From Spirogloea muscicola (lineage: Eukaryota; Streptophyta; Zygnematophyceae; Spirogloeales; Spirogloeaceae): DNA of 33,296 nt. Numbering within the stretch: position 1 is the first letter of the stretch; every line of letters starts with the position of its first letter. The translations under genes were made by a program, and so were the position numbers. The DNA lies in contig WELB01000094.1 in the NCBI GenBank assembly GCA_009602725.1, positions 113,232 to 146,527 on the forward strand. The letters are read 5' to 3'. Positions 7,976-32,875 of the stretch are shown here, piece by piece. The notes beneath the pieces are model-generated. The model was not told where the DNA came from. It ran no database searches and saw only the letters and a list, made by a program, of their open reading frames with translations.

Positions 7976-8373
7976 AATGCTCGCCCATTGAGGATAGGGG
8001 CTGGAAAAGCCAGCCCAAAAAAGAATGAACAAAGTACGTGAAGGCGGCCAGGGGAAGCGCCAAGAAAAGTAAGCACAAGAAGAAAAAAAGCAGCTACGAT
8101 TCACTCAGTAACTTCTGCTAAGCAGCCGCAGATCAGAGATGCTAGGCTCCTGGAAGTGGGTCCCTGGCCAGAGCCAGAGGCAGCTCCTGGAGTCAAAAGC
8201 AGTCAGTCGTAACCACGTTGGCAATGACTGGGAAGCAGCTCCGAAGCAGCTCGATACAGAGCCAAAGCCTGGGATCCAGGTCGGCCAGCCGTGCGGGCAG
8301 CCGGCCGCCGGGCCCGGCCGTCAGCGGCCGGCGCGGGCCGGCACGAGCCGGTCGGGGGCGGGGCCCTTTTTCT

Positions 8374-8672
8374 GACAAGGTCCGAAGAGAGAAGGCGCGC
8401 GGGGCGCATGAATTGAAAGGGAGGCCAATTCAAGCCAATACATTGTTCAGGCAGAGTCGAGTGCAGACTAAACAATGCTACATAATACGGAGACCTAACC
8501 GAAGGGGAAGAAAGGCAAGCGTCCGACAAGGTCCGACGAGAGAAAGGCGCGGAGCGCATGAAACAATGCAAGGGAGGCCGATTCAAGCCATTACATTGTT
8601 CAGGCAGGATATAGTGCAGGACAACCAAGGCTACTGTACACAAAACGGAGCCCAAAGCTAAGGTGCCTAAAG
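8374..8672. repeat. Tandem pair of a ~147-bp dispersed repeat
   Basis: Two consecutive units begin at about 8374 and 8521, each with GACAAGGTCCGA..GAGAAAGGCGC, GCGCATGAA, GGGAGGCC.ATTCAAGCC, TTACATTGTTCAGGCAG and GTGCAGAC/GACAACC. The same unit recurs singly at about 12324-12420, 12694-12750, 16631-16770 and 32640-32723 + 32831-32875. It often lies beside the hairpin tail of the retrotransposon, so it may be another 3'UTR type or a SINE that borrows that tail. Confidence 0.7.
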
Positions 8673-8866: not shown

Positions 8867-10488
8867 ATGGCGGGCGCCGCGCCGCTGCGGATGGTGCTGC
8901 TGGCCGCGGCGGCGGTGGGCGCGCTGGCCGCCGCCAATTGCTCCAACTCCGCGACCTTTGCCAACGCGGCGCGGTCATTCGCGGCGTGCTCGTCGCTGGA
9001 CGGCGACACCGGCTCGCTGGCCTGGACGCTCGACGAGAGGCTGGGGACGGTGGAGATCCTGTTCCGCCAGATACCGGAGGAGCCCACGGGGTGGATCGCC
9101 TGGGGCCTCTCGCCCGACGGCAGGATGCCCAAATCTCTCGTAATCGCCGCCTTCCCCAACAACTCCGGCGGCCCGCCCATCATCAAGCAGTACAGCCCGC
9201 TGCCGCCGTACGGCACGCCCAAGCTGGGCACCGGGCTCAACGTCACCCGCTCCGCCGTGGAGATCACCACCAACGCCGGCACCGTGCTCATCTCGCTGCT
9301 CTTCACGCTCGCCCTCCCAGACAACGTCAGCCAGCACATCTGGGGCAAGGGCCCCAACGTCAACCCCGACCCCCCCTATGACCTCTACGCGCACGCCGTC
9401 AGCAGCTGCTACGGCGGCTTCATCGACTTCTCCTCGGGCATCGTCCGTCCGCCGCCTGGAGCTTCTGCAGGCGCCCAGAAGGCGCCCGCGGCCTTGGTGA
9501 ACAAGTTCAACGGATACAAACCAGGCAAAGTCGTGACCAAGTGCACCCTGCCCTGGGGGCTCCCTACCTCACACGGCGTTACGACAATAAAGGCAGGCAC
9601 GACATGCACGTGGCACTGGACGGACAATAAAAAGCACTGCGTGGATGGTATGACTCACTGCTTCCAGCCTGCTGAGCATGGATGCATTGGTCCGCATCCT
9701 TTGCGACAGAGTGGCATCGCAAATGGTCTGGCAGTCAGCTGTCACGCTCAAGGGCAGCAATGGCAAGATCAAGATGACATGAGGACCTCCTCCTGGCCAA
9801 CCTCGACTTGCATTTCCTGAGCTCCTTGGCCGGTCCTCTCCTATGCACAGGATTCAACGCACCAGCTGGGAAGGAGCCTTACAGCCACGACGATACTGGC
9901 TTCGGGTCAAACGGACTTTCTGGTCTAGGCGTTACATACGCCTACACGTTCCTGCAGCCAGGTTTCTACCCCTACTATTGCTGCAGGCACTTGCTGAGGA
10001 TGACGGGCGCCATCCTCGTCCTTCCCAAGGGCAAGGGCAAGAGCAAGAGCACAGGTAAGCTGGGTTTGTCTACCCTGGCATGTAGACCCGAGCTCACAGA
10101 TGGTCCCCCTTCAGCTGAGCTGCTTCTGTCGCCTCTGCATGGTGTCACTTTTGGCGTCCTCAAGCGCTCAGGTCCAGCATACGTGGGCCTGAACTTATGT
10201 CCTCTGTATTCTGTGTGTTCCACTCCACAGCACCTCCCACCAAGGCTCCTCCAAAAGCAACTGCTGGGAAGCCGAAAAAGAGTACAAGCAAGGTCACAAA
10301 GGCACCAAGTGGCAGTTGTGTCCCTGCCTGCAATGGGCGGTGCTACGGGGACCAATCACTGTGGTGGCACATGTTTATTTCCAAGGAGTCCCAGCAACAC
10401 CAAAGTGACCTGTACTACATGCTGCCACAAATATCAGACTGACCCGAAGCTTGCAGCTGACTGCTACAACTCCTGTCGAGGATTTTAA
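8867..10488 (+). CDS. Secreted DOMON-cupredoxin fusion protein with Cys-rich tail (3 exons, probable frameshift)
   Basis: Exons: 8867-9647, 9851-10054, 10231 onward; junctions are CAG|GTAAGC/CACAG type and in phase. Residues 1-23 are a signal peptide. Residues about 24-190 form an AIR12-like DOMON (DUF568) domain: GWIAWGLSPDGRMP with Met87 and QHIWGKGP with His157 stand where AIR12-type proteins place their Met/His haem b ligands. Residues about 225-320 look like a cupredoxin: TWHWTDNKKH (His257), then YYCCRHLLRM (Cys304 or 305, His307, Met311), a type 1 copper set. A Lys/Pro/Ala-rich linker and CVPACNGRC follow. The exon 3 frame stops at 10442 (398 aa), but from about 10347 the next frame continues Cys-rich (CTTCCHKYQ, CYNSC) to a stop at 10488, so one surplus base in GGGG (10347-10350) is likely. 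Probable role: extracellular electron transfer; partner unknown. Confidence 0.85.
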
Positions 10489-11350
10489 TGACGCGGGGCG
10501 ACAACTTCTATGCTCCCCGCTCAGTACCGCGCCATTTTTCCCTGACAACTTACCTACCTGTAGACAACGTGCCTACAGTAGTATCCAAGCTGGCAGATCA
10601 TACAGCTAGCTCGTCAGCATCAAAGCCCGAGAGTACATCTGCAAGCTGCCACGTCCACCTTGCGTGCGACCAATTTCGCTGAGACTAGCCAGTTTGATGG
10701 AGCTGGCCAAGATCACAGCCGCAGTCTCAGCATGAGGAAGCTTCAAAGTGACCTCTGACAGTCTTTGTGCTTCAAATCTTCTTCAAAGCAGCAAGTGCAC
10801 TGCACTCAGTTGATGGATCAGTAGTGAAAGGCAACCGAAGAAAGAGTGCAAGCTCGATCTGAATTGTTTCAAAATGTCAACAGGCAGAGTCAAGTAGAAG
10901 AGATTCTGTGTGCACTAATCAAGCTCAGTAGTCAATCATCAAGCTTTGATCAGTACATGATGAGCAGCTTGTCCATTTTGCAAACCAACTCGTCCATACG
11001 TGTGCAAGCAATCCTGAATCTTGCTGGCTTGCTGGTGGTGGTGCTGGTGATGGTGTCAGCTTTCCAGACCCCAGAAAGAGACCTCTTAAAACAATTGAGG
11101 AGGCTAAGCTGATGACCAGCTCAGCTCAAGCGGTAGCATCAAATCACCCCGCAGGGGTTTGCATGTGGCAGTCAGCACTAAGGCAGCCTGAGCACGGGCC
11201 CCTCACTTCACATGCTACCTCATACTCTTTGCGTACTGGGCCTCAATCATAGATGCTAATGCACCGGCCGTCTGACTTCCATAGCAGATCGCACCGCTAC
11301 TAGCTTACGCTGCAGGCTGGCAGAAAAAGGGCCGTGCTAGGTCTGAGCTA
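10489..11350. other. 3' flank of the DOMON gene, no further gene seen
   Basis: No TGTAA was found close behind the stop. An open frame at 10846-11112 contains one hydrophobic stretch (ILNLAGLLVVVLVMVSAF) but starts with a non-ATG codon and resembles no family I know; I do not call it. Confidence 0.4.
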
Positions 11351-12323: not shown

Positions 12324-12830
12324 AAAGGCGCGCGGAGCGCATGAAATGAAAGGGAGGCCATGGCCAATACATTCTTCAGGCAGAATCTCGTGCAAAACAA
12401 AGGCTATATGAAACGGAGGTACGAAGGTATAGCGAGGAGCGGCAGGCGCAGGGCGTGAGACAAACTCGTGTGTTTGAAACAAACGAAGACCACATTGCCA
12501 AGTACAAAGGCAAGCACATATAGAGACCTACATAACCTACAGCAGATTGACCCGCTCAGTAACAACGCGTGAGGGGTGCCGGCGGATGCTAGCCTGGCGG
12601 GCGGGAGGGAAAGCGAGGTTTGGAGTGTGTATTAATTGATGGAGGGCCTGAGTGTGGCCAAGTACAAAGGCAAGCAACTTTGACAAGAGTGGAGAAGGCG
12701 CGCGGTGCGCATGAAGGTGAAAGAGGCCAATTCTAGCCTTACGAATGTCCTGGTAACGGGTGTTGAGTTGGCTAAGGGGGCAACTAATATCCTCGAGTAA
12801 GCACATACATATCTGACAAGCTAAGCTGAG
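12324..12830 (-). mobile_element. Nested retroelement fragments upstream of eEF1B
   Basis: Order along the + strand: a GCGCGCGGAGCGCATG-type repeat (12324-12420), the CCAAGTACAAAGGCAAGC 3'UTR block with an ORF end (12486-12580), a partial repeat of that block (12655-12680), another GCGCGCGG unit (12694-12750), and a minus-strand ORF end reading SDMYVLTRGY (12814-12784). The last lies about 230 nt before the eEF1B start codon. Confidence 0.6.
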
Positions 12831-12968: not shown

Positions 12969-13008
<40 letters not shown>

Positions 13009-13009
13009 N
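12969..13009. other. Forty-T run and single N (likely assembly join)
   Basis: T from 12969 to 13008, then N at 13009, between two GCC-rich stretches. A 40-base homopolymer ending in N points to a sequencing or scaffolding problem. The leader of the eEF1B gene is therefore not reliable upstream of 13010. Confidence 0.7.
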
Positions 13010-13045: not shown

Positions 13046-13816
13046 ATGGCCGCCTCCCCGGCGCCGCCGTCCTTCCGCAACCTCTCGTCTCCCGAAGGCC
13101 TCAAGGCGCTGGACGAGTACCTGCTCACGCGCAGCTACATCACCAGGTACCAGGCTTCCAGAGACGACCTCGCGGTGTACAGCGTGCTCAAGGGCGTGCC
13201 AAGCGAGTACGTCAATGCGGCACGGTGGTACAAGCACATCAGCGCGCTGCTGGGCTCCAGCTTCCCTGGTCAAGGGGTAGGTGTGGACCTTGGTGGCGAT
13301 GACGGGGAATTTCAGGCGGCGCCAAAGGGAGGACTACCTCCTGTTGCTGCTGATGGGGCAGCAGGGATTATAGCTGCAACGTTAGCTGGCGTCGCGGCAG
13401 TTGCGCCAGCAACTCCTCCTCCAGCTGCTGATGAGGACGATGATGATGACATGGACCTGTTTGAAGAGGAGACCGAGGAGGAGAAGATAGCCAGGGCTGA
13501 TCGTGAAGCTGCTGCTGGAAAGTCCACAAAGAAGGAGAGTGGAAAGTCCTCCGTCTTGCTGGATGTGAAGCCTTGGGACGACGAAACTGATATGGTCAAG
13601 CTGGAGGAGCTAGTCCGCAGCATTCATTTGGAGGGCCTCACTTGGGGATCATCTAAGCTTGTGGCTGTTGGGTATGGTATTAAGAAGCTCATCATCATGA
13701 TGACCATCATCGACGACCTTGTGTCTATTGACGAGCTTATTGAAGACAAACTGACCCAGGGCGAAGCTGCCGAGTACATCCAGAGCTGCGACATTGCCGC
13801 TTTCAACAAGATCTAA
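13046..13816 (+). CDS. EF1B: Translation elongation factor eEF1B, guanine-nucleotide-exchange subunit (beta/alpha type)
   Basis: Uninterrupted 256-aa frame. It recharges eEF1A by exchanging GDP for GTP in the cytosol. Residues about 5-75 form the GST-C-like N-terminal region ([26 protein letters not shown]). A low-complexity Ala/Pro linker leads to an acidic block from D129 ([14 protein letters not shown]). Residues 170-256 are the exchange domain: [60 protein letters not shown]. The penultimate Lys255 is the residue that in yeast eEF1Balpha enters the Mg2+ site of eEF1A. The ATG at 13046 has the GCCGCCATGG context and fits family length; an upstream in-frame ATG (12950) reads through the poly-T/N artefact and is rejected. 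Odd: no introns, though its neighbours have many. Confidence 0.95.
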
Positions 13817-13834
13817 ATTTTTTGCGACTTCCAC

Positions 13835-14409
13835 CTTCACCCTCTTGCCTACGCCTGCGCACCCGCGCCTGCGCCTGCGCCTGCGCCCAGAGAGCTTAGC
13901 GCGTAGAGCATACTGCAGCCGGTACCGCGCCTGCGTCCGCGCCTGTGCCCAGACGAGCATAGTGCGCAGAGCATACGGCAGACGGCAGCTAGTGGAGCTT
14001 GCCTGGACCCGCATACGACTGCGAGAAGTCTTTGAAGATTCGCGGTGAGCAGCCTCGCATACAGAGCTGCCATTGTTTGTCTGTCTGTCTAGACCTGACA
14101 GTCGAGGTCATTAAGTCTGCGGTGTCTTGCCCAGTACTGACATCGTGGTCGAGTACATTGTTGCATCAGTTGCTAGAGTCAGTGCTCTTGCATCTTGCAT
14201 GCTTGCATATCTACGCCGGGTTACAAAAGCCGCGGTCCTGACATTGGTTACCAAAGCCGGGTTCGAACACTGGTCACCAAAGCCGAGCTCGAACACTTTG
14301 TTACCAAGCCGTGGTTTGAACACTCGCATTACGAGTGTCGCTATCCAAACTATCACTCTCATAAAGCAGGGTCACTTGATCTAGTCTAGTCCGTTTGATT
14401 CCTCTTTGA
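13835..14409 (+). repeat. Left arm of a ~1.2-kb inverted repeat (palindrome)
   Basis: Reverse-complementary to 14463-15040, with about a dozen mismatches or one-base gaps noted over ~575 bp (about 98% identity by eye). It starts 19 nt after the eEF1B stop, so it may lie in that gene's 3'UTR. It contains CGCCTG-type tandem hexamers (13851-13890) and three related ~27-bp units, ACCAAAGCCGGGTTCGAACAC and variants (14245-14325). Confidence 0.9.
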
Positions 14410-14462
14410 ATCATAGGGGTTACACGCATGTTTGCAGGCCAATGCTGGTATACCTGATACTA
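14410..14462. other. Loop of the inverted repeat
   Basis: Fifty-three unpaired bases between the two arms; nothing recognisable in them. Confidence 0.85.
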
Positions 14463-15040
14463 TCAAAGAGGAATCAAACGGACTCGACTAGATCAAGTGA
14501 CCCTGCTTTGTGAGAGTGATAGTTTGGATAGCGACGCTCGTAATGCGAGTGTTCAAACCACGGCTTGGTAACAAAGTGTTCGAGCTCGGCTTTGGTGACC
14601 AGTGTTCGAACCCGGCTTTGGTAACCAATGTCAGGACCGCGGCTTTTGTAACCCGGCGTAGATATGCAAGCATGCAAGATGCAAGAGCACTGACTCTAGC
14701 AACTGATGCAACAATGTACTCGACCACGATGTCAGTACTGGGCAAGACACCGCAGACTTAATGACCTCGGCTGTCAGGTACAGACAGACAGACAAACGAT
14801 GGCAGCTCTGTATGCGAGGCTGCTCACCGCGAATCTTCAAAGACTTCTCGCAGTCGTATGCGGGTCCAGGCTAAGCTCCACTAGCTGCCGTCTGCCGTAT
14901 GCTCTGCGCACTATGCTCTTCTGGGCACAGGCGCGGACGCAGGCGCGGTACCGGCTGCAGTATGCTCTACGCGCTAAGCTCTCTGGGCGCAGGCGCAGGC
15001 GCAGGCGCGGGTGCGCAGGCGTGGGCAAGAGGGTGAAAGT
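14463..15040 (-). repeat. Right arm of the inverted repeat
   Basis: Mirror of 13835-14409. Differences from the left arm include single substitutions near 14533 and 14928 and a one-base gap near 14872. The open frames of 83-85 codons found in both arms are mirror images and no evidence of coding. No target-site duplication is evident at the outer ends. Confidence 0.9.
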
Positions 15041-17602: not shown

Positions 17603-18765
17603 TGTCGAGCGGCATGAACGCGGAGTCGGCGGCCATCGAGAAGCCGGCCTCCACGAGGATGCCCATGTCTCGCATCCCGGAGGTGGTCGTGGGCCGCTGT
17701 CCGCTCGCCGCCGTGGGAACAGCGCAGAACATGGGCGGCCAGCTCCCCAGGCTCGGCCCCTCGCTCGCCACATTCGCAATGCAGCACACCCTGGAGACGT
17801 GGCGGCGGCAGGCCCAGGAGCCGGTGGACGGCACTGCGGAATACCTCGTCCGGGAGGGCGTCGCTGAGGGGGAGTGCCTGGAGCCACGCCGCTGCCCCTG
17901 GGGAAGAGGCCGAGTGGAGTCGTGCGCGCCCGCGCAGGTCGGCCGCCGGGAGCTGCTGCAAGGCGGTGGTGAAGGCTGCCCTGTCCATCGAGGCCGCAAA
18001 GCGCGCTTGGACGCGCAGGTCGGCGGTGTGCGCGAGGTGCTCAAACGAGACCGCCTGGCCAGCCAGATCCGGGTGCTCCGCGAGCAGCTCCTGGTGGGCT
18101 GAGCGTAGTGACGCCTGGAAGGGCAGCACACCCGTGCTGACCTCCACCATTGCCTGCTCCAGCGCACGCCGGCCGTGGACCAGGAAGCGCTGAGATATGG
18201 AGGCGGCTGTCTGTGCCCAGCTGCCCATATACGCCGCCCTGCAGGAACGGACGACCGGGCGCAGGCCGAGACCGCTGTAGCTTAGGGGCAGCGCCGCCTG
18301 ATGAAGAGCGGCAGGCGACTGGGGAAGCCCTGGTGGCGGACCAGGGCCGCCAGGCTCGCCACCATGCCGGCGTCGAAACCCGCGTTCGCCGCCAGCGCCC
18401 CTTGGGGACGGTGGGGTGGTTCGCGCCAGGTACTGGGGCCTCTGCTCAATGACCTTGGTTAGGATGGCCATAGCCAGCTGCATGTCCTGCAGCTCGGGGA
18501 GCCGGGCTCCAGGCTGGAGGTGCTCCTCGAGGCGGGCGTGCAGCTGCCCCTCCACGAAGGACGGCGCGCCGAGGGGGAAGCCGTCTGCAGGAGTCTGGCA
18601 TCCGGGGGGCAGCGCCAGGGTGGATGGGAGGCCGCAGGGGGACCAAGCCGCGCACTTTGACGCCCGGGTGGACAGGCCGAGGGTGGCCAGCTGCAGCTCG
18701 AAGGTGACGAAGGCCGCCGCCACGTCGTCCGGAGGGCCGACAATGGTGGTGTCATTAGCAAACGT
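17603..18765 (-). pseudogene. Retrotransposon fragment: RT C-terminal part to CCHC knuckle
   Basis: Read on the minus strand it begins at TFANDTTIVGPPDDVAAAF, the reverse-transcriptase active-site block with FAND in place of F/YADD (one G-to-A change would explain it), followed by LATLGLSTRASKCAAW. The thumb/connector region follows, then RLLGLPPPRLQGVLHCECGE and HVLRCSHGGERTAAH, a C-x-C...H...C knuckle. It stops at MPLDR, before the endonuclease, where the sequence passes into the 3' tail at 17602. The long frame that spans this stretch crosses the head-to-head junction at 18765 and frameshifts; the element is dead. Confidence 0.8.
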
Positions 18766-19700
18766 AGGCAGCATGGTTGGCCCTCCGGAAGACGTGGCGG
18801 CGGCCTTCGTCTCCTTTGAGCAGCAGCTGGCCACCCTCGGCCTGTCCATCTGGGCGACAAAGTGCGCGGCTTGGTCCCCCTGCGGCCACCCATCCACCTT
18901 GGCGCTGGCCCCTGGATGCCTGACTCCTGCAGACGGCTTCACCCTCCTGGGGATCACTCTTGGCGCGCCGTCCTTCATGGAGGAGCAGCTGCGCGCCCGC
19001 CTCGAGGAGCACCTCCAGCCCGCGGCCCGCGGCCCGACTCCCCGAGCTGCAAGACGTGCAGCTGGCTCTGGCCATGCTGACCAAGGCCATTGCGCAGAGA
19101 CCCCAGTACCTGGCGCGAGCCACCCCGCCGTTCCCAGGGGCGCTAGCGGCGTACGCTGGTTTTGATGCAGGCATGGTGGCGAGCCTGGCGGCTCTGATCC
19201 ACCACCAGGGCTTCCCCCAGTCGCCTGCTGCTCTTCATCAGGCAGCGCTGCCCCTCAGCTACGGCAGTCTCAGCCTTCTCCGCTTGTTCGTTCTGCAGGG
19301 CGGCGTACCTGGGCAGCTGGGCGCAGACAGCCGCCTCCGTGTCCTAGCGCTTCTTGGTCCGGGGCCGGCGTGTGCTGGAGGTAAACAGGTGGTGGTGGAG
19401 GTAAACACGGGTGTGCCGCCCTTCCAGGCGTCGCTATGCTCAGCCCACCAGGAGCTGCTCGCGGCGCACCCGGATCTGGCAGGACAGGCAGTCTCGTTTG
19501 AGCACCTCGCGCACACCGCCGACCTGCGCGTCCAAGCGCGCTTTGCGGCTGCAATGACAGGGCAGCCTTCGCCACCACCTTGCAGGAGCTCCCGGAGGCC
19601 GACCTGCTCGTGCGCGCACGACTCCACTCGGCCTCTTCCCCAGGGGCAGCGGCGTTGCTCTTTTCCAGCTGCGAGTCACTCCGACTTGCTGCCGCTAACT
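18766..19700 (+). pseudogene. Retrotransposon fragment, head to head with the previous copy
   Basis: + strand reads SMVGPPEDVAAAFVSFEQQLATLGL, LGAPSFMEEQLRARLEEHL, LPELQDVQLALAMLTKAIAQ, then AHQELLAAHPDLAGQAVSFEHL and the stretch before the knuckle. It then jumps (about 19655) to an ORF-end-like SDLLPLTRN and stop, so knuckle and endonuclease are missing. The amino-acid sequence differs at perhaps one position in six from the minus-strand copy, so this is a separate copy and not a fresh duplication. Several frameshifts. Confidence 0.8.
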
Positions 19701-21903: not shown

Positions 21904-24900
21904 ATGCAAGCCTTCCCGGCGCGCGGTCGACGGCCGGCGACCGGCCAGCAGCTCGCGCCGTACGAGCTCAAGTGCGACCGCGAGGCCCTCTCCGAGCGGT
22001 GAGCTAACGGAGCTAACGAAGCTTTCCGGCTTTCCGCCGTCTCCGCGGCCTTGGCCGGCGTCGCCTTGCTGCGAGCCGCGCTTCGGAAGAGCCAGAGCTC
22101 GTCCAGAGCTGGCCTTCCGCCACCATCCGGCGCCCCCTAGAGAGGGTCCAGCGAGCCGCTGTCCAGCAACAGGCGTCTGGCATTCTGCTGATGTTCCACT
22201 TGCTAGTAAGCCTACGGAAGTTAGAACGGGCAAAGGGAGAAGGAATCCTACTGGCTGGAATGCTCGAATATCAGAAGGAAATATCTCATCCGAATCGGAT
22301 GCAGTCAGTTTGTGCAATGCTGCGAAAAGTGGGACGAATCTCATTCGAAATGAGATTCAGTCACTTTGTCCAATGCTCAAGTGTAAAGCTTCGCTTGAGC
22401 ACTGGATAAACTGACTCCACTCAGTTGAGATGGGACTTGTCCATCTGATATTCGAGCAGTCCAGCCAGTAGGATACCCGTTCTCTTTGCCCATTCTAATT
22501 TCCCGTTGGCTTACTAGTAATTGAAACATCAGCCAAAAACTCGTACCCATATATTTCAGCTCAGAGGGAGCTGCCGCTGCCAGGCAGCAGGCCAGGGGAC
22601 CCTTGCTTAGCGCCATTCAGAGCCACAGCAGCTACGGCGCCATTGCTCGATGCGCAGGCACTTCAACGACCACCACCCACTTGCAGCAGAGCATGCTGGG
22701 GAGCTCGATCTGCCAGCTTGCATTGTCGGGCCACTGCTTTTCGTTGACGCCTGATTGTTGCGCCTTGCCTTGTCAGGCTGGGCCCCGCCGAGTACTACCC
22801 GCCGTCAGCTGAAGACTGCGAGGGCGTCCTGTCGAAGGAGGCTGTGCAGAGCGGCTACAAGGAGGTCATTCCGGGGATCGAGGTGACTGTCAATCGTCAT
22901 GTTGCTGGCCGTCTGCACGAGCAGGAGCAAGCCCGTGCCAATGCTGTTTTGCTCGTGGTTGCAAGCTTCAGTGGCACCCCAGCCACAGTGTGCTGGTGGC
23001 ATCTTGGGTGTCATTTACGCCTGTCACTGAGGTTTTATGATGAGGAGATCTGGTGCATGACACACTTTCATATGCCCTCGTCCGTTTGTTGCCTCTGCTG
23101 GCAATGTTGGCAATCGCAGGAGAGCATGGAGGTGGCACACACGCTAACAGGCAGCTCCTTCGCAGACATCTGGGCGGCGCACAGCATTGCCCAGTACCGT
23201 GAGGTCTGGCTGGCAGGCCTGCAGCGCAGCTATGACAGCCACACAGAGCTGCCAATTGCTACTCATTGAAGCACTCCACTTCCTCTTGTACTTTCTAATG
23301 TAAAGTTCTTGCAGTTACAGTGCCGTGCACAGGTTTAAAGTCCAGTAAGCATCTCAGATTGAGAATGTTACCGCCCTGCAGACCATCCGGCGGCAGCTCC
23401 GGGCTCTGCACGGTGTGGTACTGCGGAAGCGGAAGGCAAGTTCAGATTCTTTTGTAGAGAGCTCGGCCGAAATTGATTCGAATATGACAGTTGTGCACTG
23501 CACAGCTAAGTAACCCCTATTGTACCTCTGCTGATACACATTGCTTCATGGATTTTTTTTATCAGTTCGAGGTCCTACCAATCGATTCTGGTTGGGTCAG
23601 TTGTTGACATACGGCTGCATGATTGGAGGAGGCAGGCTGGGCAGGTATATGGTGTGCCGCTGGTTGGGCCCCTGCTCCTCAAGTCCGGCCAGTTCCCCGA
23701 GCTGAAAACATGTGGCGAAGACTTCCGCCGGAAGTGGATGGAGGTCAGCGCTTCGTGTGACCTCCCTCTCATGATTTTTCTGATGGCAGTTGTACGCCTT
23801 CTGCAACTAGCATGGACAAAGGATGCCCAGTCTTCACCAAAGTAGGCGGACCCTTTTGCCTGACTTGGACGACCTGGTACAGAAGGTTTGCCGATCTTGT
23901 AAGGATGTGTCTCTGTGGTGATAGCTCAAAGACAATGTGCAAGTCTTCAGGACTTGGCTGGGCGGAAGCGACTCCGGCAGTTGGCTGAGCACGTCCCCCA
24001 TGGCTTCCGCAAGAAGCTGCTCTTCGAGGCGCTTATTCGCCACAATGTACCGCTGCTGCGGGCGACCTGGCACATCCGCATTCTCTACTTGAATCAGGCA
24101 CGTATGGTGTACATGAGAAGCAGCTAGCACAAATTGGACCGCCTCGTTTGCTGGCTGGCAGCCGTGTCGCGCTTGTTTACAAGAGAACAAAGCAACTTCC
24201 TTGAAGCAACGTGATTAACAGCATCACTGAGGTAGGGGACACTCTTGATAAATTGTAGACACAGAACAGAGCACAGCTTCTGGATGCCGGAAACTCAAAA
24301 GCTCTGAGCATTCTAATGCTCAGGTACGACCGACGGCTCCTGGAGGAAGTGGTGGGATCACTGACAAGGCGCAGGCACGGCGAGTGGATGTCTGGACCAA
24401 GGACTTGCTAGAATATGCTCAGTCTCTGCTCGAAGAGGTTGCTGTCACAGGGTCTTTGGCCACGTTCAAGGAGACTGCGAACCCCTCTTCGAAGCTGGCA
24501 GAGGCTTCCTCGGAGGTCTTGCCAATTGATGTACAGGTGCGAGGAGCGATGCTTGCGCAAGACGCATCCATGTCAAAGGCCTGCTGTTTCGCATCATCCG
24601 TGCTAAGGAGACGAATGGCCTGTCCTGCCTTGTATAGCTCCTACTGGAGCTTGGCTAGGTCCTACCTTGGCTTGGCTCCTGATAGCACCTTGTGCTGCAG
24701 GCCAAGTGGCGGTACCTCATGCGGCTGGCACAGTGGCATTGGTCGGAAGGCTTGGTCCCATGCTCAGCAGTCCTGGACTGGATCCTCAAGCAGATGCAGG
24801 TACGAGTCGTCAGACCCAGGTCGTTATGTCTTCTCCTCTGAAAGCTTGGCAGAAATGAAGACGACCTGGTCTGCGTTCTCATGGTCAGCTGTTACTCGGC

Positions 24901-27900
24901 AACATCCATTGCAATTATTTACTTCTTATGAAAAGGTTATGTGAGGGTATTAATGGGAGGTGGAGTGCCGTGGCCGTGCTGGACGCTGCAGGACATGGAG
25001 TCCTTGCGAGTCCTGGAGGCGCTGCTGCCGGTCCTGCTGGCGCTCCTGGACTCGCTGGACGTTGTGTCCCAGCTGCATCTCCGCACCATCGTTGACGTCT
25101 GTCTCCAGTGGTTGGCCAAGTTGAGTCGAGAGCCAGTCGCCGTCGGCGCTACACATGATGCGCTGCTGGAGGCCCGAGCGTGCCTTGCAAACATCCTGCT
25201 CTACCTTTTGGTGGCCATGCCGGACTCCTTTGTGGCTCTCGACACTTTCCCGCTCTCTTCTGTGACGAGCCATATCCGCCATCAAGTGAAGCAAGTTGGC
25301 GACATGCAGGGGATTTTGTTCGACAAGATTCTCAAGAGGCAAGGGATTCACACGGAGCTTGCTGCAAGGCCTCAGATGGTGCTGTGCATTGGCAAGGAGG
25401 TGGCTGCGTCAGTAAGGTCTCGCGCCGCAGCGCTGGCTGCCGGCGTGGCACCTGGCGTCCTCCGAAGCAACGAGGGCAAGGTGGTTCAGGAGCTCCATGC
25501 CGCGTTGAGCTCCGGGAGCGTGGCGGCAGCTTGTGGGGCCCTGTTTGATGCCGCCTTCTGCAATGGCGAGCTCCTGGCAGGCTCCTGTGCAGGCCCCAGG
25601 AGCTCGACGGAGGTCAACGGGAGCAACCCGTCGGAGGTCCGCTCGCGGCGGCTGAAGGCCATGACCCATGAGCTGGCCGCCATCCATTTCCTGTGCGACT
25701 GGGCAGTCTCCAGCTCCCATCCACAACTGCAGGCCTCTGGCTGCTTGGCGAGCGGTGTCTTGCGTAAGCTCTTTGCCGTTTCGGTCTTGCGCCACCGGAG
25801 AGAGGAGCTGCATGCAGAGCAAGGCAGCATGGAGGAGGATGCCATGCACCAGCTGCTTCGCAAGTGGCTGGACTCCATGTCTGCCTCCCACCAAAACAAT
25901 AGCAGTGCCCTGCAGGTTGGTCAAGCAGAACATGATCCCTTATGCGTCGTGTTTACGCAAGCATTTGCTGGTAACACTTGTACTTGCTGACGAGTGTTGA
26001 CTTCTTTGCAATGTCTAGTAAATGCATGGATGATTTCTGTGGCTCGTTAGAAGCAGCCATCCATGGTGCCAAATTGGCGCTGACCTTTAAGAAGTTCCTG
26101 TGGCGCAGGCTCTTATGATGGAAGTGGTGCATGCGGGCTTGGTATCCCCAGCCGCTTATGTGGGCTGGCTGGTGGCGGAAGGCGTGCTGGCGCGGCAGAG
26201 GTCGCCTGCGGAGATGGCACGTGCACGCTGGCACCTGCAGCTCTTGCGCAACATGCCATGGGGCCTCCTGGGCGGTCAGCAACAGAACGAGGCCAGCAGA
26301 AGATTCATGGCAGAGCGCGAGCTTGCGCTAAGTACCTTCCAGAGTGTCGGTTCTCCATTAGCAGCAAGCGATGGTAAAGTGAAGAGAGGCAAGGCCGAGC
26401 TGCTGTTCTTGAGACAGCTGACCTGCGAGGTGCTGCAGCTCCCCTGCGCCCCTTGCTCCCAACCCACTGCAAGCGAGCTCCCGGCAGAAGCTCAGCAGGT
26501 GGACAACTTGCCACTGCCATCAAGAGCTCCGCAAAGTGACGGGGACACAGAGGTTGTCAAGGACAGTGGCTATGCCACTGCGTCAAATGACGATTGCTCT
26601 TGGTGGCTGCGAGGTGCCTCCAACTTTGACCAGATGAATGTCGAAGTCACTGGTACAGGTGAAATTGCAACATCCGCCTCTTCTCATTCCCTGGCACTGG
26701 ATGAGAAGGTGCTACAGATGCGCAGGGATGCTAGGTGGGGAGCGTCATGTAGCCACAACTGCTATGAAAATTGCTCGGCTGTCTCAAGGCTCAAGACGAT
26801 TGGGAAGGACGAGATCAAGCTCGACCAACTGCCTGTCCGCATCAAGAAGCTGAAGATGCGAGAGCGGCGCAAGCTGTCGCGGTGGCTGACTGCGGCAGTG
26901 GATGCGTCCGCCGAACGCATGGGAACACACAGATCAGGCATAGGTGATGTGATCAGTGCCGGCCTACCCGACAAATCGGACAAGATGCCGAGCAAGGCAG
27001 GCTCGGACAGGGTCAGGTTGATGAACTGCGACAGCGTCTCCGCCAAAGCCGAGGCTCGATGGGGACCGCATGAGGAGGAAGTTAACATTGTCCTGTTGCT
27101 GCTGGACAGCACTGAAGATTTTGGGGGCCTCGTCGATCTGCTGTTGCTGCTACTGAAGCAATGCGCTACTTCCTCCCAGCAACATGCAGATCAAAAAGTT
27201 GCCCTGCGCAAGTGGGACCCCATCCCCCTCCACTATCTTCTGTCCTGCTTGAGGAGGTGAGATCAATGACACCCCGTGACAGGGCAAATATGAACCCTTA
27301 TCCCAGCTATTTCTTACACGGAAAGATGACGCTTGCAATGCTATCTTCCAGAAAGATCAGATAAGATGTTGCTAGTTGCGTCGTTGATACACTATACCTT
27401 GTCCAATTCTCACCCCTTGATAGCACAGATTTAGCCATAATACATTCGTCAGACTGACTAATCGTATCTTCGCATGCAATCTATGAGGGTGCAGGTACGA
27501 GAGACATGTGGCGGCCATGGACCTGGTGCCTAGACTCTTGACCACTCTCCTCCAGCTCTCCAGCACGGCCCCGCAGCACCAGGCGAGTTGCCGGGAAGAG
27601 GTGTCTCGCCTCTGGCATGCCTACAAGCTCGTCCCGTCTGTGCAATCGTGGGAGACGTCACTGAGGACGTCCAGATGCGACTCGAAGATGGTGGCCGAGC
27701 TAAACCACTGCCAGGCGCAAGCAGAGGCAAGCGCGAGCTGCTGGCGCGGGCAGCCGGCGACCAACTGGGTTGCCGAAGCAGAGAACGGCGGCAGCGAGCA
27801 CGCAGAGCTGCCCGGGGGGAAGCTGGTGGCGTCACTGCAGGACTGTGTCCACGCTGAGCTGACCGACGAGATGCTGGGCATCCTCAGCCGCGCTCGAGAG

Positions 27901-30900
27901 GAGAAGAAGGCCGACTCCTGGATGAGCTCTCCAGAGGACATGGCAGGGAGGAGGAGGGAGCGGGAGACGGAGCTGGCTGCCACGGAGAGGGCCGCAGCAG
28001 GGCTCGCGGAGATCGTCCAGCAGGGCTGCTCGGAGCTGCCGGGGGCAGCTGCGCAGGAGGCGCTGGCACGAGCGGCCGCTGCCGCGATCGTGAGCCACTG
28101 CGTCACCGCCACAGTCAGCCTGCTGGACAGCCTCGAGGAGGGAGGGAGGGGGGTCGACGGAGGTGCTGCCGCCGCTGCCGACGTCGAGCTGTCTCTGGGG
28201 CAGAGGAAGGCCGGGCGGCGGTGCGTGCAGATGCACGTCCGGTGCTTGGCGGCGCTGGAGGGGCTGCTGCCGGACCGCCACCGCTGCCACCTGGAGGAGG
28301 GCGCCGTGGTGGAGGCCGCCGGCCACGTCCTGGCGAGCTTGGCCAGGGGCCCCTCGGCAGCGAGCGCCTCCCAAGCTGCGTTCCACATGTCGCCGGAGAC
28401 GCCCGACTTGAGCAGCCCGCTGTCGCCGGCGGCCGGCCCCCTCGCCTCTAGTGACAATGTGGTGCAGGCAGGCCCCATCTCGCCGATTGGCAAGTTGGTT
28501 GCGGCGGCGTTCGTGGCGTCGGCCGTGGCAGCCGACGCATTGCAGCTGGACTGGGCCCTCAAGGTCCTGCAGCTCCGGGAGGGGCTCGCAACGGCGCGGC
28601 GGGGTCCCACGCCGCGCGCCGCGGGCGAGTGCCACCGTGCGCTGCTCTACTGGTACTGCGTGCTGCAAGGCTGCGGCTGCTCGGAGGCCGTCGTGGGGTC
28701 CCAGCTGGCGGTTGCCGGCCTTGTCGGGCCGGCAGACGGCCTGGCCCTGCGCCGCCTGCAGCAGGGGCTGCCGTTCGAGGCGGCCGTGCCGCCGGCCTAC
28801 TCGCTCTTCTGCACCCACCTGGCGCGCATGGCTGCACCGCACAACAACGACGGCAAAGTCAGTCCGCCCCCGGCCCCTTCCCCCAGCTTGGCGGCTGCTA
28901 TTGTCCAGTGCTACAGCTTCTTCTGTGGCTTGCCCTGCATTCGCTGTGCCTGACATGGTCATTCAGCATGCTGTCAGGAGCTGAGCGCCGCGGCAGCTGC
29001 AGCCGTCGCCAGCTGCTCGGTGCGGGAGATAGCTCTGCATGACATGCGCGCTCTTTACACGTACCTTGCCGAGGAGATGGACCTGCTCGGATCGAAACCG
29101 AACCACCTGATCTCGTTGGAGCCGAAGCTGCCGCTCTCGTCTACGGCCTCTACGACCTTGGAAGTTGGCGCAAGTCAGATCAGCAGCATGCCGTTGCCGG
29201 CCCGTCTGTTCTTGCACGCCCTGATGGTTGGCGCACTGCCAGGGAATCGCCCTCCTTCCAGCACTGCATCATCAATCACCTCGGAGCTGATACGTGTCCT
29301 CAACGGCCTCCAGCCATGGACCTTCCACTGGCAGTGGGTTGAGCTCCGGCTGCTGCTAAACGAGCAAGTGAGCAATACAAGGCTTGAGTATGTATCCATA
29401 GAGATGCCTCTTTGGCTGACAGTTAAGCAACTTAATCATGTGGGCTGCTCTTATACAAGGGGTTATTTGACTCGAGTAGTTATCTTATACGTGGCGGCAT
29501 GTCCAGGTCCTGCTTGAGAAGCTGTCTGTACCAGGGGCGACGGACGAGGACGCATGGCAGTCAGCGCGACTGGCGGGGGGCGACAAGGGCCAGCTGGCGG
29601 AGTGCGAAAAGACTTTCACGTCCGCCGTGCTCTCACGGCTGCTCGTCCACCCCCGCAGGGCAGCTCTGTACAGCGAGGCCATCCGCTGCCTGGGCAGGGG
29701 CCTTGAGGATTACCTCATCCTCCAGGTGAGGCAACAAGGTCACCGCTGTGTCTTGCCTGCCTTTGACTCAACCAGTACTTGTCAGATGAATTTGTGGAAG
29801 TTAGTAGGAACGTGCTGCCGAGGTCAAATGAGGGTCTCTGGTTGTTCAGACATGCTGCACTCTGTTTCTGACTACTACAAGAAGGCCCAAAGCACAGCAC
29901 TATGAAAACAAAGCGAGCAAAGGAGAGCAAACCAGCACGCTCTGCATAGCCCCAGCATTGCTTACAGGCTTGTATACAGGGTGGAGGATCCTGAACCTTG
30001 GTCTTGGGGCGGAGAAGGTCAGGGGCAGTGTCCAAGATTTTCTGATAACAGCCAGCAAGCACTTCTCACCTGCCTGATTCCTCATTGGCTTGAAGCATTG
30101 CTTGTTGCCTACAGGTGAAGTGGGTACTCGAGGGTAGCGACATGCTCTTTGGCCGCAAGTCACTGCGTCAGCTGCTTGACCACAACGCTCAGGCGCACGG
30201 GTTCAGCACGCCCCCAGGTTATGGCAATGGACAGGACGCGGCATTGCTGGTGGAGGGAGAGGATGTGCAGAAGGAGGCCGCTGGCGAGGATGGAGGAGGG
30301 CGGCTGCAACCGTTTGCTACTGAGCGGGCGCTTGCCGACCTTGTGCTGCCCTGCCTGGCGCGGAGCTCCCACGACACATGCGCCGGCTCGGCGGCGGACC
30401 TCGTCAAGCAGGTGCAGTAGCCGCTCCTCACCTTGGTACATGTTGCATGTTTTGGGTTGAGTTCTTCATATGTAGCGCCTGCTAGATTATAATTGACTTG
30501 TGCTTTGTTAGTTATGTTAGGTACATTAGTATTTTGCTGGTATGACACCTTCGCTTATGGCCATGCAGATCGGGTACCTGGAGCAGCACATAAGCACGCT
30601 GAGCAAGAGCACCTCAGCAGGCAGCGGGGCCTCAGTGACTGAGGCACGGGGCCTGGCGCCGCTGCGGGGCCGGCGGATGGGCGGCGAGGCGGCAAGCAGC
30701 CCTGGCATGGGGCGGCGGCCCCTAGCAGGTGGCGGCGCCGTCGCAGATGCAACGCCCGCCCCGCCAGCAGTGGCCACTGCAGCGGCGCTGCAGACTTCGC
30801 TGTGGCTTCGCCTCCAATTCCTGCTGCCGCTGCTGCCCATCATACACGCCGACAGGTTCGCGATGTCTGGGCCTGCCATGCGGCATGCTTGGATGCTGAC

Positions 30901-32180
30901 ATCTGACAGGCAGTCCTCTTGCATTCATCTTCAATGACCATGGTCCTGTATATTGGCTTGCTGCTTCTGGCAGCAGGTTTGGTTCTGTGCAATCAACTTG
31001 TTGGCTGATGCAACGCGGGGAGCTGTGACTTTTACTTACAGGGACCAGACAGCCCGCAACATGCGGCAGTTGCTCGCACCAATTCTACTGCGCCTGCTTG
31101 GCACGGGCGTCGTCCAAGAGGCCATCGAGCCGGTGCTGCTCCCGTTAGCGGCATCAGGGCCCGACTCCTGGCCTGGCAAGCAGCCGCCGGTGGCCGACGA
31201 TGGGGAGTATGCCGTGCGTTCGGCGGCTGTGGCAGCCGCGATGGCTGGGGAGTCGCTGTTTGAGCGAGTCCTTAGCTTGCTGCACGCAGTGGCCAGCGGT
31301 ACATGGGCGGCATGGCTCAAGCCGCCGCCGGGAACAAAGCCAGCCAAGGCGCTGCGGGAGGTGCCACCGCTCGACCGCGACACTGCGGAGCGCATGCAGG
31401 TGCCTCCAAGTAAACCAAGACTGAAAAGCAAGAAAGCAAGGCCGGTATCTCTAGCCCCAGACATAAAGGGGTACCTGGTTTCCATGTTGAGCCTTCCACA
31501 GATTGCCCGTTATCCTGCCTTGCCTCCTGGCCCTGCCTGCCTTGCCAGCAGTTCTTCGTCTGCAGTGTCCGCGCGCTTGCAGTATACACGTCAGGCGGAT
31601 TGTGTAGGATTGTTGTGCTGACAGCCGGCAGCATATCTCTGCGTGGTGGCACTCGTTGTGGTGCTGAAAGCCAGCAGCATGATCTTTGTGTGGTGCCACT
31701 CAGAGCGAGCTTGACCACATGCAGCTGCCGGAGGGCGTGCGACTACGGATCCAGGCCGCGCTGCCGAACCTGCCGCCGCTGCCGAATCCCGTGCTGTCGG
31801 CAGCGCCCCCAATTGTACCACCGGCAGCCTTCCAGGTCGTCCAGATTGCCAATGGCTGCGAGGCGCTTGTCGAGCCGGTCACAGAGAGCGGTAGCAGCAC
31901 GTATCGGAGCATGCCGCAGCAGGAGGTGGGGGGCAAAGCCCGCTCGGCAGCACTGGAGTATGAGATGGAGCTGGACCTTTGGATGCTGCTGGAAGAGGGC
32001 ACTGCGTCAGGCGCTTTTGCTGTGGCAGCGCCGTCACCGGCAGCAGCGCTGCCCGAGGGGGTCGGTGCTGGCAGCAGCGCCAGCAGCGTCCAGCGGGCCA
32101 GCGCATGCTTGCGTGGCACGGTGCGTGTGCCGCGAGCACGGCTCACGTATGTGGACGTGCAAGGCGACACCGGCGGCTAG
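21904..32180 (+). CDS. MED12: Mediator complex subunit 12 (17 exons)
   Basis: Exons: 21904-21998, 22777-22882, 23120-23203, 23358-23435, 23636-23743, 23951-24097, 24324-24536, 24701-24799, 24992-25915, 26109-27256, 27495-28857, 28978-29367, 29507-29725, 30115-30411, 30569-30855, 31042-31399, 31704-32180. All phases close: 2130 aa, near the ~2200 of plant MED12. MED12 activates CDK8-cyclin C in the nuclear Mediator kinase module. N terminus: YELKCDREALSERLGPAEYYPP and SGYKEVIPGIE; Med12 domain (about 96-206): RKRKAGQVYGVPLVGPLLLK, CGEDFRRKWME, HVPHGFRKKLLFEALIRHN, VPLLRATWHIRILYLNQ; then WTKDLLEYAQ, KWRYLMRLAQWHWSEGL, AMPDSFVALDTFPL. C-terminal plant blocks: WQWVELRLLLNEQ (to 1585), LRLQFLLPLLPIIHADR, ARNMRQLLAPILLRLLG, LPEGVRLRIQAALPNLPP. 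Introns 4 (AAG|GCAAGT) and 6 (CAG|GCACGT) appear to be GC-AG. Exon 3's donor is the least certain. Confidence 0.93.
22187..22533. mobile_element. MITE-like element with ~85-bp terminal inverted repeats in MED12 intron 1
   Basis: The left end (GCTGATGTT..ACTTGCTAGTAAGCC, then GGGCAAAGGGAGAAGG.ATCCTACTGGCTGGA and CTCGAATATCAG) is reverse-complementary, with gaps, to the right end (CTGATATTCGAG to ACATCAGC). Smaller palindromes fill the middle (around 22340 and 22390). About 347 bp, no coding capacity. No clear target-site duplication was seen, so the superfamily is not assigned. Confidence 0.7.
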
Positions 32181-32284: not shown

Positions 32285-32639
32285 AGTATTGAGAGTGGCA
32301 GCAACCACTTACAGTAGTGCTGCTCGGTACCCGCAGGGCACATGGCGTTTTTGTATCGCCGACACCAAGGTCATGGTTGAGTCAGGTGTTGCATCTTTGT
32401 GGGGGGAGAATAGTGGTCACATATGTCGGGTTTTGCTCTGGCCGCCGATGGTGCACGCAGCAGAAGAGGCAATGTGCAGCGAGGAGTAAGCTGAATGAGA
32501 GCTATGAATGTGAAAAGTCAGCCCAGAACGAATGGACAAGGTCCACAAGAGAGTGAACAAGGTCCACAGGAGCCGTAAAAGAGTAGAAGACAGTGAGCTC
32601 TTCCAAAGGGGGCCGGGGCTGCGAGAAGCTAGCCGGAGA

Positions 32640-32875
32640 AGAAGGCGCGCGGTGCACATGAAACGAGAGGGAGGCAAATTCAGGCCAATAAATTGTTCAG
32701 GCAGAATTCAGTGCAAAATAAGTCCTTGTCCATTCCTTTTGGGCTGGCCTCTCCCAGCCACCAGTCAATCTGGCCGCGCTTGCTAGGCAGGAGGCAGCAG
32801 CGTACCACCCCCCCCCTCCTCCAAATAAGTAGACGAGGCTACATCATACGAAGCCCTATGCTAAGGTGCAGGGGA
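32640..32875. repeat. GCGCGCGG-type dispersed repeat interrupted by a later insertion
   Basis: The repeat runs 32640-32723 and resumes at 32831-32875 (GGCTACATCATACG, GCTAAGGTGC), matching the uninterrupted copy at 8374-8520 in order. The break holds a 3' tail. Confidence 0.75.
32724..32830 (+). mobile_element. Short retroelement 3' tail inserted with apparent 8-bp target-site duplication
   Basis: The insert begins CCTTGTCCATTCCTTTTGGG, includes the hairpin tail (GGGCTGGCCTCTCCCAGCC) and ends in CCTCCAAATAAGT. AAATAAGT stands on both sides (32716-32723 and 32823-32830), as expected of a target-site duplication. The same tail variant is found inverted at 7452-7510. Confidence 0.7.

Follow-up and report, generated by a model that had tools for sequence, protein, structure and literature searches.

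An AIR12-like DOMON domain followed by a cupredoxin domain in a predicted secreted protein of Spirogloea muscicola

AIR12 is a b-type cytochrome of flowering plants that contains a single DOMON domain. It consists of a signal peptide followed by one DUF568-type DOMON domain, with Met and His at the ligand positions and an N-terminal Cys. A similar arrangement, with candidate Met and His ligands, is apparent in the first part of the protein described below, which is encoded on the + strand of a 33,296-nucleotide stretch of Spirogloea muscicola DNA (the window). AIR12 possesses a GPI anchor, according to an excerpt of PMC10784544, and no copper domain, whereas the fusion protein has a cupredoxin domain after the DOMON domain. 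The CYBDOM proteins HYP1 and CRR also have an extracellular DOMON domain, with a Met/His pair separated by 84 to 91 residues in excerpts of the papers that describe them. CYBDOM proteins further contain a membrane cytochrome b561, whereas no match to one is found in the spliced fusion protein or in ten open-frame pieces located downstream on the + strand. A cytochrome b561 partner encoded downstream was rejected on these pieces. None of the 10 matches, and only sub-cut-off similarities to T2SSF (E = 0.038) and DUF6947 (E = 0.15) appear.

The second module of cellobiose dehydrogenase is a flavin dehydrogenase, whereas that of the fusion protein is a copper domain. The cytochrome domain of cellobiose dehydrogenase is comparable, being a DOMON-like haem b domain joined to another redox module (excerpt of PMC10784544). 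The CDH-cyt profile matches the DOMON fragment of the fusion protein below its cut-off (12.0 bits, E = 0.17). The coupling of DOMON domains to other redox modules is a known theme in excerpts of PMC10784552 and PMC3591440. The partners listed in the former are monooxygenase, cytochrome c, flavin, and b561, a pairing with ferric reductase is described in the latter, and cupredoxin is named in neither. The C-terminal part of the fusion protein shares with plastocyanin, amicyanin, pseudoazurin, and halocyanin (PF00127) the fold family, as judged by profile, and the same four ligands. These proteins are mostly single-domain carriers.

In insect Knickkopf the DOMON domain is also followed by a C-terminal region, which later descriptions reportedly call plastocyanin-like. 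An excerpt of PMC4140639 gives Knickkopf two N-terminal DM13 domains and a GPI anchor or membrane helix. Its last 200 or so residues are conserved there, but the authors could not assign them and saw no relation to known SMART domains. In the fusion protein neither the DM13 domains nor such an anchor or helix is seen, and DM13 has no match in the spliced protein at E values up to 10. An initial annotation of this DNA, made from the letters and open reading frames alone (the sequence-only reading), knew of no described protein with this domain order. Despite the SMART statement, that claim is not upheld with confidence, since with a plastocyanin-like region in Knickkopf the DOMON-then-cupredoxin order may not be new. 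Both domains are familiar; their pairing is unusual.

The literature search found no paper that names a plastocyanin-like domain in Knickkopf, and none on a DOMON-cupredoxin fusion among the papers inspected, a minority of those that co-mention the two. PMC5216662 and PMC12612560 were discarded, having been matched through author names only (Domonkos and Domont). No relative was found in the viral (three scans) and prokaryote (two genome scans) collections, where a short-peptide filter limits the exclusion to close relatives. PHROGs gave no match. A search with PF03351 of one plasmid record and 14 control genomes gave no match and was uninformative.

Gene structure and splicing

The features of the gene model are as follows.

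8867..9647, + strand: exon 1, with an ATG start, the signal-like peptide, the DOMON domain, and the cupredoxin domain through His257 to residue 260; the frame is open
8867..8935, + strand: signal-like peptide, residues 1-23; across the protein, hydrophobicity in windows of 15 residues peaks at residues 9-23, and the cleavage site is putative
9648..9850, + strand: intron 1, 203 nt, GT..AG ends
9851..10054, + strand: exon 2, with the remainder of the cupredoxin domain and the beginning of the Lys-rich linker
10055..10230, + strand: intron 2, 176 nt, GT..AG ends, proposed from sequence signals only and absent from the sequence-only reading
10231..10488, + strand: exon 3, with the Lys/Pro linker and then a Cys-rich tail in a different frame

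The DOMON and cupredoxin domains follow each other in one reading frame. The DOMON domain and His257 are contained in a single uninterrupted exon, and the fusion is therefore independent of splicing. Exons 1 and 2 encode residues 1-328 of the fusion protein. The signal peptide claimed earlier is consistent with the ATG at 8867 and the hydrophobic N-terminus, and secretion of the protein is probable. Residues 24, 98, 125, and 153 each begin an N-glycosylation sequon. No credible paralogue was found elsewhere in the window by tblastn (best other E = 0.45).

The proposed removal of 9648-9850, which joins the two halves of the copper domain, was examined by scoring alternative splice products against a profile of five prokaryotic cupredoxins (138 distinct GT..AG products, of which 133 were scored). 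The score rises from 20.9 bits for the unspliced sequence to 63.6 bits with 9648-9850 removed, which ranks third of 133; the scoring is not fully independent because the members of the profile were picked by their likeness to the spliced protein. Two products score slightly higher, 9641-9876 with 64.8 bits and 9648-9865 with 64.5 bits, and several others are near 60. The GT..AG ends and the gain in score thus support splicing at this position, and the exact splice sites are not fixed.

The linker and the Cys-rich tail are in different frames, so the 3' part of the gene model is provisional. The sequence-only reading had placed a Lys/Pro linker before a Cys-rich tail. The Lys/Pro-rich linker is present (Lys accounts for 11 and Pro for 7 of its 38 residues), but the tail sits in another frame. 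The stop codon of the linker frame is at 10440-10442 and that of the tail frame at 10486-10488. The two could be joined by a one-base shift where four G stand in a row, or by splicing out any of the 16 short GT/GC..AG introns that were listed. The self-inverted blocks present in the window are maybe assembly faults, and a sequence error at the 3' end is therefore possible; the frame conflict may represent an assembly error or a decaying gene. No Pfam family matches the Cys-rich tail above its cut-off. A match to PF05294 (E = 0.49; 11.3 of 25 bits) is far under the cut-off and was taken as chance. Within the tail, hydrophobicity over 15 residues reaches a mean of at most 0.22, so that the hydrophobic C-terminus of a GPI-anchor signal, as in AIR12, is not seen in a gene whose 3' end has a frame conflict.

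The GC content at third codon positions ranges from 0.70 to 1.0 in exon 1. Followed from 8867 to 10333, it starts at 0.94, reaches 1.0 at 9167-9316 in the DOMON domain, declines to about 0.7 over the copper domain, and is down to 0.44 in the linker and exon 3. This drop is perhaps a trace of the evolutionary assembly of the gene.

DOMON domain and candidate haem ligands

The features assigned to the DOMON domain are the following.

8939..9436, + strand: AIR12-like DOMON domain (DUF568-type), about residues 25-190, from profile matches and the AIR12 alignment
9125..9127, + strand: Met87, likely haem axial ligand, facing the methionine of the provisional AIR12 sequence
9392..9394, + strand: His176, likely second haem axial ligand, facing a histidine of the provisional AIR12 sequence in 5 of 5 gap settings

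The profile search proposed in the sequence-only reading gave a divided result, with Copper-bind above its cut-off and the DOMON and DUF568 similarities under the Pfam cut-offs. The DOMON fragment matches DUF568 (PF04526) with 20.8 bits (E = 6.6e-4; cut-off 25 bits) and DOMON (PF03351) with 18.7 bits (E = 0.0021; cut-off 32.7 bits). The AIR12 sequence used for comparison is a provisional one that does not come from a database record. This AIR12 itself obtains only 16.3 bits with PF03351, and the low DOMON score is therefore no argument against the assignment. With DUF568 the provisional AIR12 obtains 93.1 bits, and the 20.8 bits of the fusion protein thus mark it as a distant member of this family.

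Direct comparison with the provisional AIR12 gave a BLASTP alignment of 41.6 bits with 25% identity over 158 amino acids, in which Cys41 aligns with an AIR12 cysteine at the position of the N-terminal Cys pair. The Smith-Waterman score is 115, whereas 2000 shuffles average 32 and do not exceed 62 (z = 15.7). Among the 129 open pieces of at least 100 amino acids in the window, the next best score against AIR12 is 53. Together with the DUF568 and DOMON similarities, the alignment to the provisional AIR12 sustains the earlier identification of a DOMON domain. No solved DOMON structure was matched by sequence in the PDB. Antibody light chains that match the DOMON part (E of 0.029 and worse) were taken as chance. 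A single-sequence model of the domain has a mean pLDDT of 32.6, which is too low to interpret.

The sequence-only reading had assigned Met87 and His157 to the haem-ligand positions. Met87 keeps its place as a putative ligand, since it aligns with the AIR12 methionine in the provisional sequence. His157 (9335-9337) was rejected as a haem ligand; it faces an AIR12 histidine in none of 5 gap settings and lies opposite a gap in all five, while His176 faces an AIR12 histidine in each. His176 is therefore the best candidate for the second ligand, not a proven one. Its partner in the provisional AIR12 is His185 in 4 of 5 gap settings and His175 in 1 of 5, so the register is not fixed. His175 is reportedly the haem ligand of AIR12. 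The spacing from Met87 is 89 residues for His176 and 70 for His157. In excerpts of the respective papers, the modelled haem ligands are M90 and H174 in HYP1 (84 residues apart; PMC10784544) and M89 and H180 in CRR (91 residues apart; PMC10784552), and M100 and H197 are named in the alignment of a study of rice DUF568 proteins (PMC10500787). On the alignment, the haem histidine is most likely His176 rather than His157.

Copper domain

The features assigned to the copper domain are the following.

9500..9647, + strand: first part of the cupredoxin domain, about residues 212-260; the Copper-bind match covers residues 240-317 of the spliced protein
9635..9637, + strand: His257, predicted ligand 1 of the type 1 copper, the same residue in all six alignment rows
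9979..9981, + strand: Cys304, predicted thiolate ligand of the type 1 copper, the same residue in all six rows, opposite YYC of plastocyanins
9988..9990, + strand: His307, predicted ligand 3 of the type 1 copper, the same residue in all six rows
10000..10002, + strand: Met311, predicted axial ligand of the type 1 copper, the same residue in all six rows

Pfam Copper-bind (PF00127) matches the domain alone with 25.3 bits (E = 2.1e-5) and the whole protein with 21.9 bits, for a cut-off of 21.2. The NCBIfam profiles that match over the same stretch are halocyanin (E = 1.8e-5), plastocyanin (0.011), and amicyanin (0.048), each well under its own cut-off. A PDB sequence search gave 19 matches, of which plastocyanins take the first four places, with E values of 0.01 to 0.027. 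A tblastn search of plasmids matched 21 records, and all 20 that were listed fall on residues 227-323. Of these listed matches, 17 are annotated as halocyanin, plastocyanin/azurin, or cupredoxin, and 3 are without a listed gene.

The ligands were compared in an alignment of the fusion protein with five prokaryotic relatives taken from the 21 plasmid matches. Ten columns are invariant in all six rows, including those of His257, Cys304, His307, and Met311. The copper loop has the form C-x2-H-x3-M; the five relatives have C-x2-H-x2-M and C-x2-H-x4-M, and the x3 spacing is intermediate. A profile of the six rows, which includes the fusion protein and is dominated by the other five, matches 73 PDB sequences at E values up to 1e-5. 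Plastocyanins, amicyanins, pseudoazurins, and nitrite reductases are among the 60 of these 73 matches that were listed.

The earlier assignment of a cupredoxin domain with these four ligands agrees with the Copper-bind match above cut-off and with the four invariant columns. Cys304 and Cys305 had both been put forward for the copper cysteine. The invariant column holds Cys304, and the adjacent Cys305, which falls outside it, was rejected. By the alignment, all the ligands predicted for a type 1 copper site are present.

Proposed function and genomic surroundings

On balance, the protein is probably a secreted two-centre electron carrier with one haem b and one type 1 copper, and the electron relay proposed in the sequence-only reading may reasonably be inferred from the domains. 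Met87 and His176 would be the axial ligands of a single haem b in the DOMON domain, and His257, Cys304, His307, and Met311 would bind a single type 1 copper in the cupredoxin domain. The haem could accept one electron from a low-potential extracellular donor, either ascorbate or a membrane-bound cytochrome b561 (CYBDOM or CYB561 type), and would pass it to the tethered copper. The copper may then dock with another partner, for which a copper oxidase, an oxidised phenolic, and a metal are candidates. We infer cofactor binding, electron transfer, its direction, and the partners. In excerpts of PMC10784544 and PMC10784552, ascorbate reduces the haem of AIR12, and HYP1, which has a DOMON domain, reduces ferric and cupric substrates with electrons taken from ascorbate. 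A more specific proposal is made only tentatively: the protein might represent a new class of green-algal extracellular relay, with a haem b DOMON domain and a type 1 copper on one secreted chain, connecting ascorbate or cytochrome b561, as the donor, with an acceptor in the wall that depends on copper, for metal reduction or wall oxidation.

Alternatively, the DOMON domain may be without haem and may bind a sugar or a wall polysaccharide, so that its role would be to locate a lone copper-based electron carrier at the wall. Both haem and sugars are named as DOMON ligands in excerpts of PMC3591440 and PMC4140639, the DUF568 score is weak, and the register of the second haem ligand is not fixed. 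However, a methionine is kept at the AIR12 position and a histidine is found at about the right spacing (84 in HYP1, 89 here, and 91 in CRR), and we regard the sugar-binding alternative as unlikely. Less likely again is a matrix role like that of Knickkopf, a DOMON protein that protects chitin (excerpts of PMC5501833 and PMC4140639), with the DOMON and cupredoxin domains acting as extracellular matrix binding modules and no electron transfer. The copper ligand set of the fusion protein appears complete and the spliced protein is without a DM13 match, both of which speak against such a role, and it is the least probable of the alternatives considered.

The gene may also be broken or decaying, or its 3' end wrongly assembled, in which case the true protein would end otherwise, perhaps with a membrane anchor, and act like AIR12 or CYBDOM. 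This is somewhat less probable than the sugar-binding alternative. It is consistent with the differing frames of the linker and the Cys-rich tail, the run of four G where the frame changes, the fall in third-position GC from 0.94 to 0.44 along the gene, the self-inverted blocks and N runs in the window, and a membrane-helix-like stretch in the downstream + strand frame piece at 10828-11109. Against it, exons 1 and 2 are open, the predicted ligand sets are complete, and a cytochrome b561 match is lacking in the ten downstream pieces.

Known partners of DOMON domains include cytochrome b561, flavin, and copper monooxygenase, and the electron acceptor of the lone plant DOMON protein is poorly defined. 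A fusion of a haem DOMON domain with a blue copper domain, if true, would point to a copper protein as the partner of the lone DOMON, and would offer a single chain for the direct measurement of haem-to-copper transfer.

One neighbour of the fusion gene is a gene for an EF-1 guanine exchange factor (PF00736, 98 bits) that ends at 13816. This factor resembles its green-plant counterpart, and together with the high GC content this would fit a green alga. At 12969-13009, within or just ahead of its frame, 40 consecutive T and an N occur. Three blocks of the window are reverse complements of themselves from end to end: 13833-15040 (96% identity), which begins just past the end of the exchange factor gene, 17881-19660 (86%), and 22187-22533 (73%). 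Foldback elements or faulty assembly could account for these blocks. Copies of a dispersed repeat, each about 50 to 90 nt long, lie at 8370-8460, 8522-8607, 12325-12387, 12692-12738, and 32633-32705, the first two being just upstream of the fusion gene. Several long open frames of up to 488 amino acids, with no Pfam match in those scanned, are located on the + strand at 24252-32180 and may be exons of one large gene. A piece of a gene for a GDP-fucose protein O-fucosyltransferase is found at 1686-2399 (PF10250, 84.2 bits, E = 1.7e-23).
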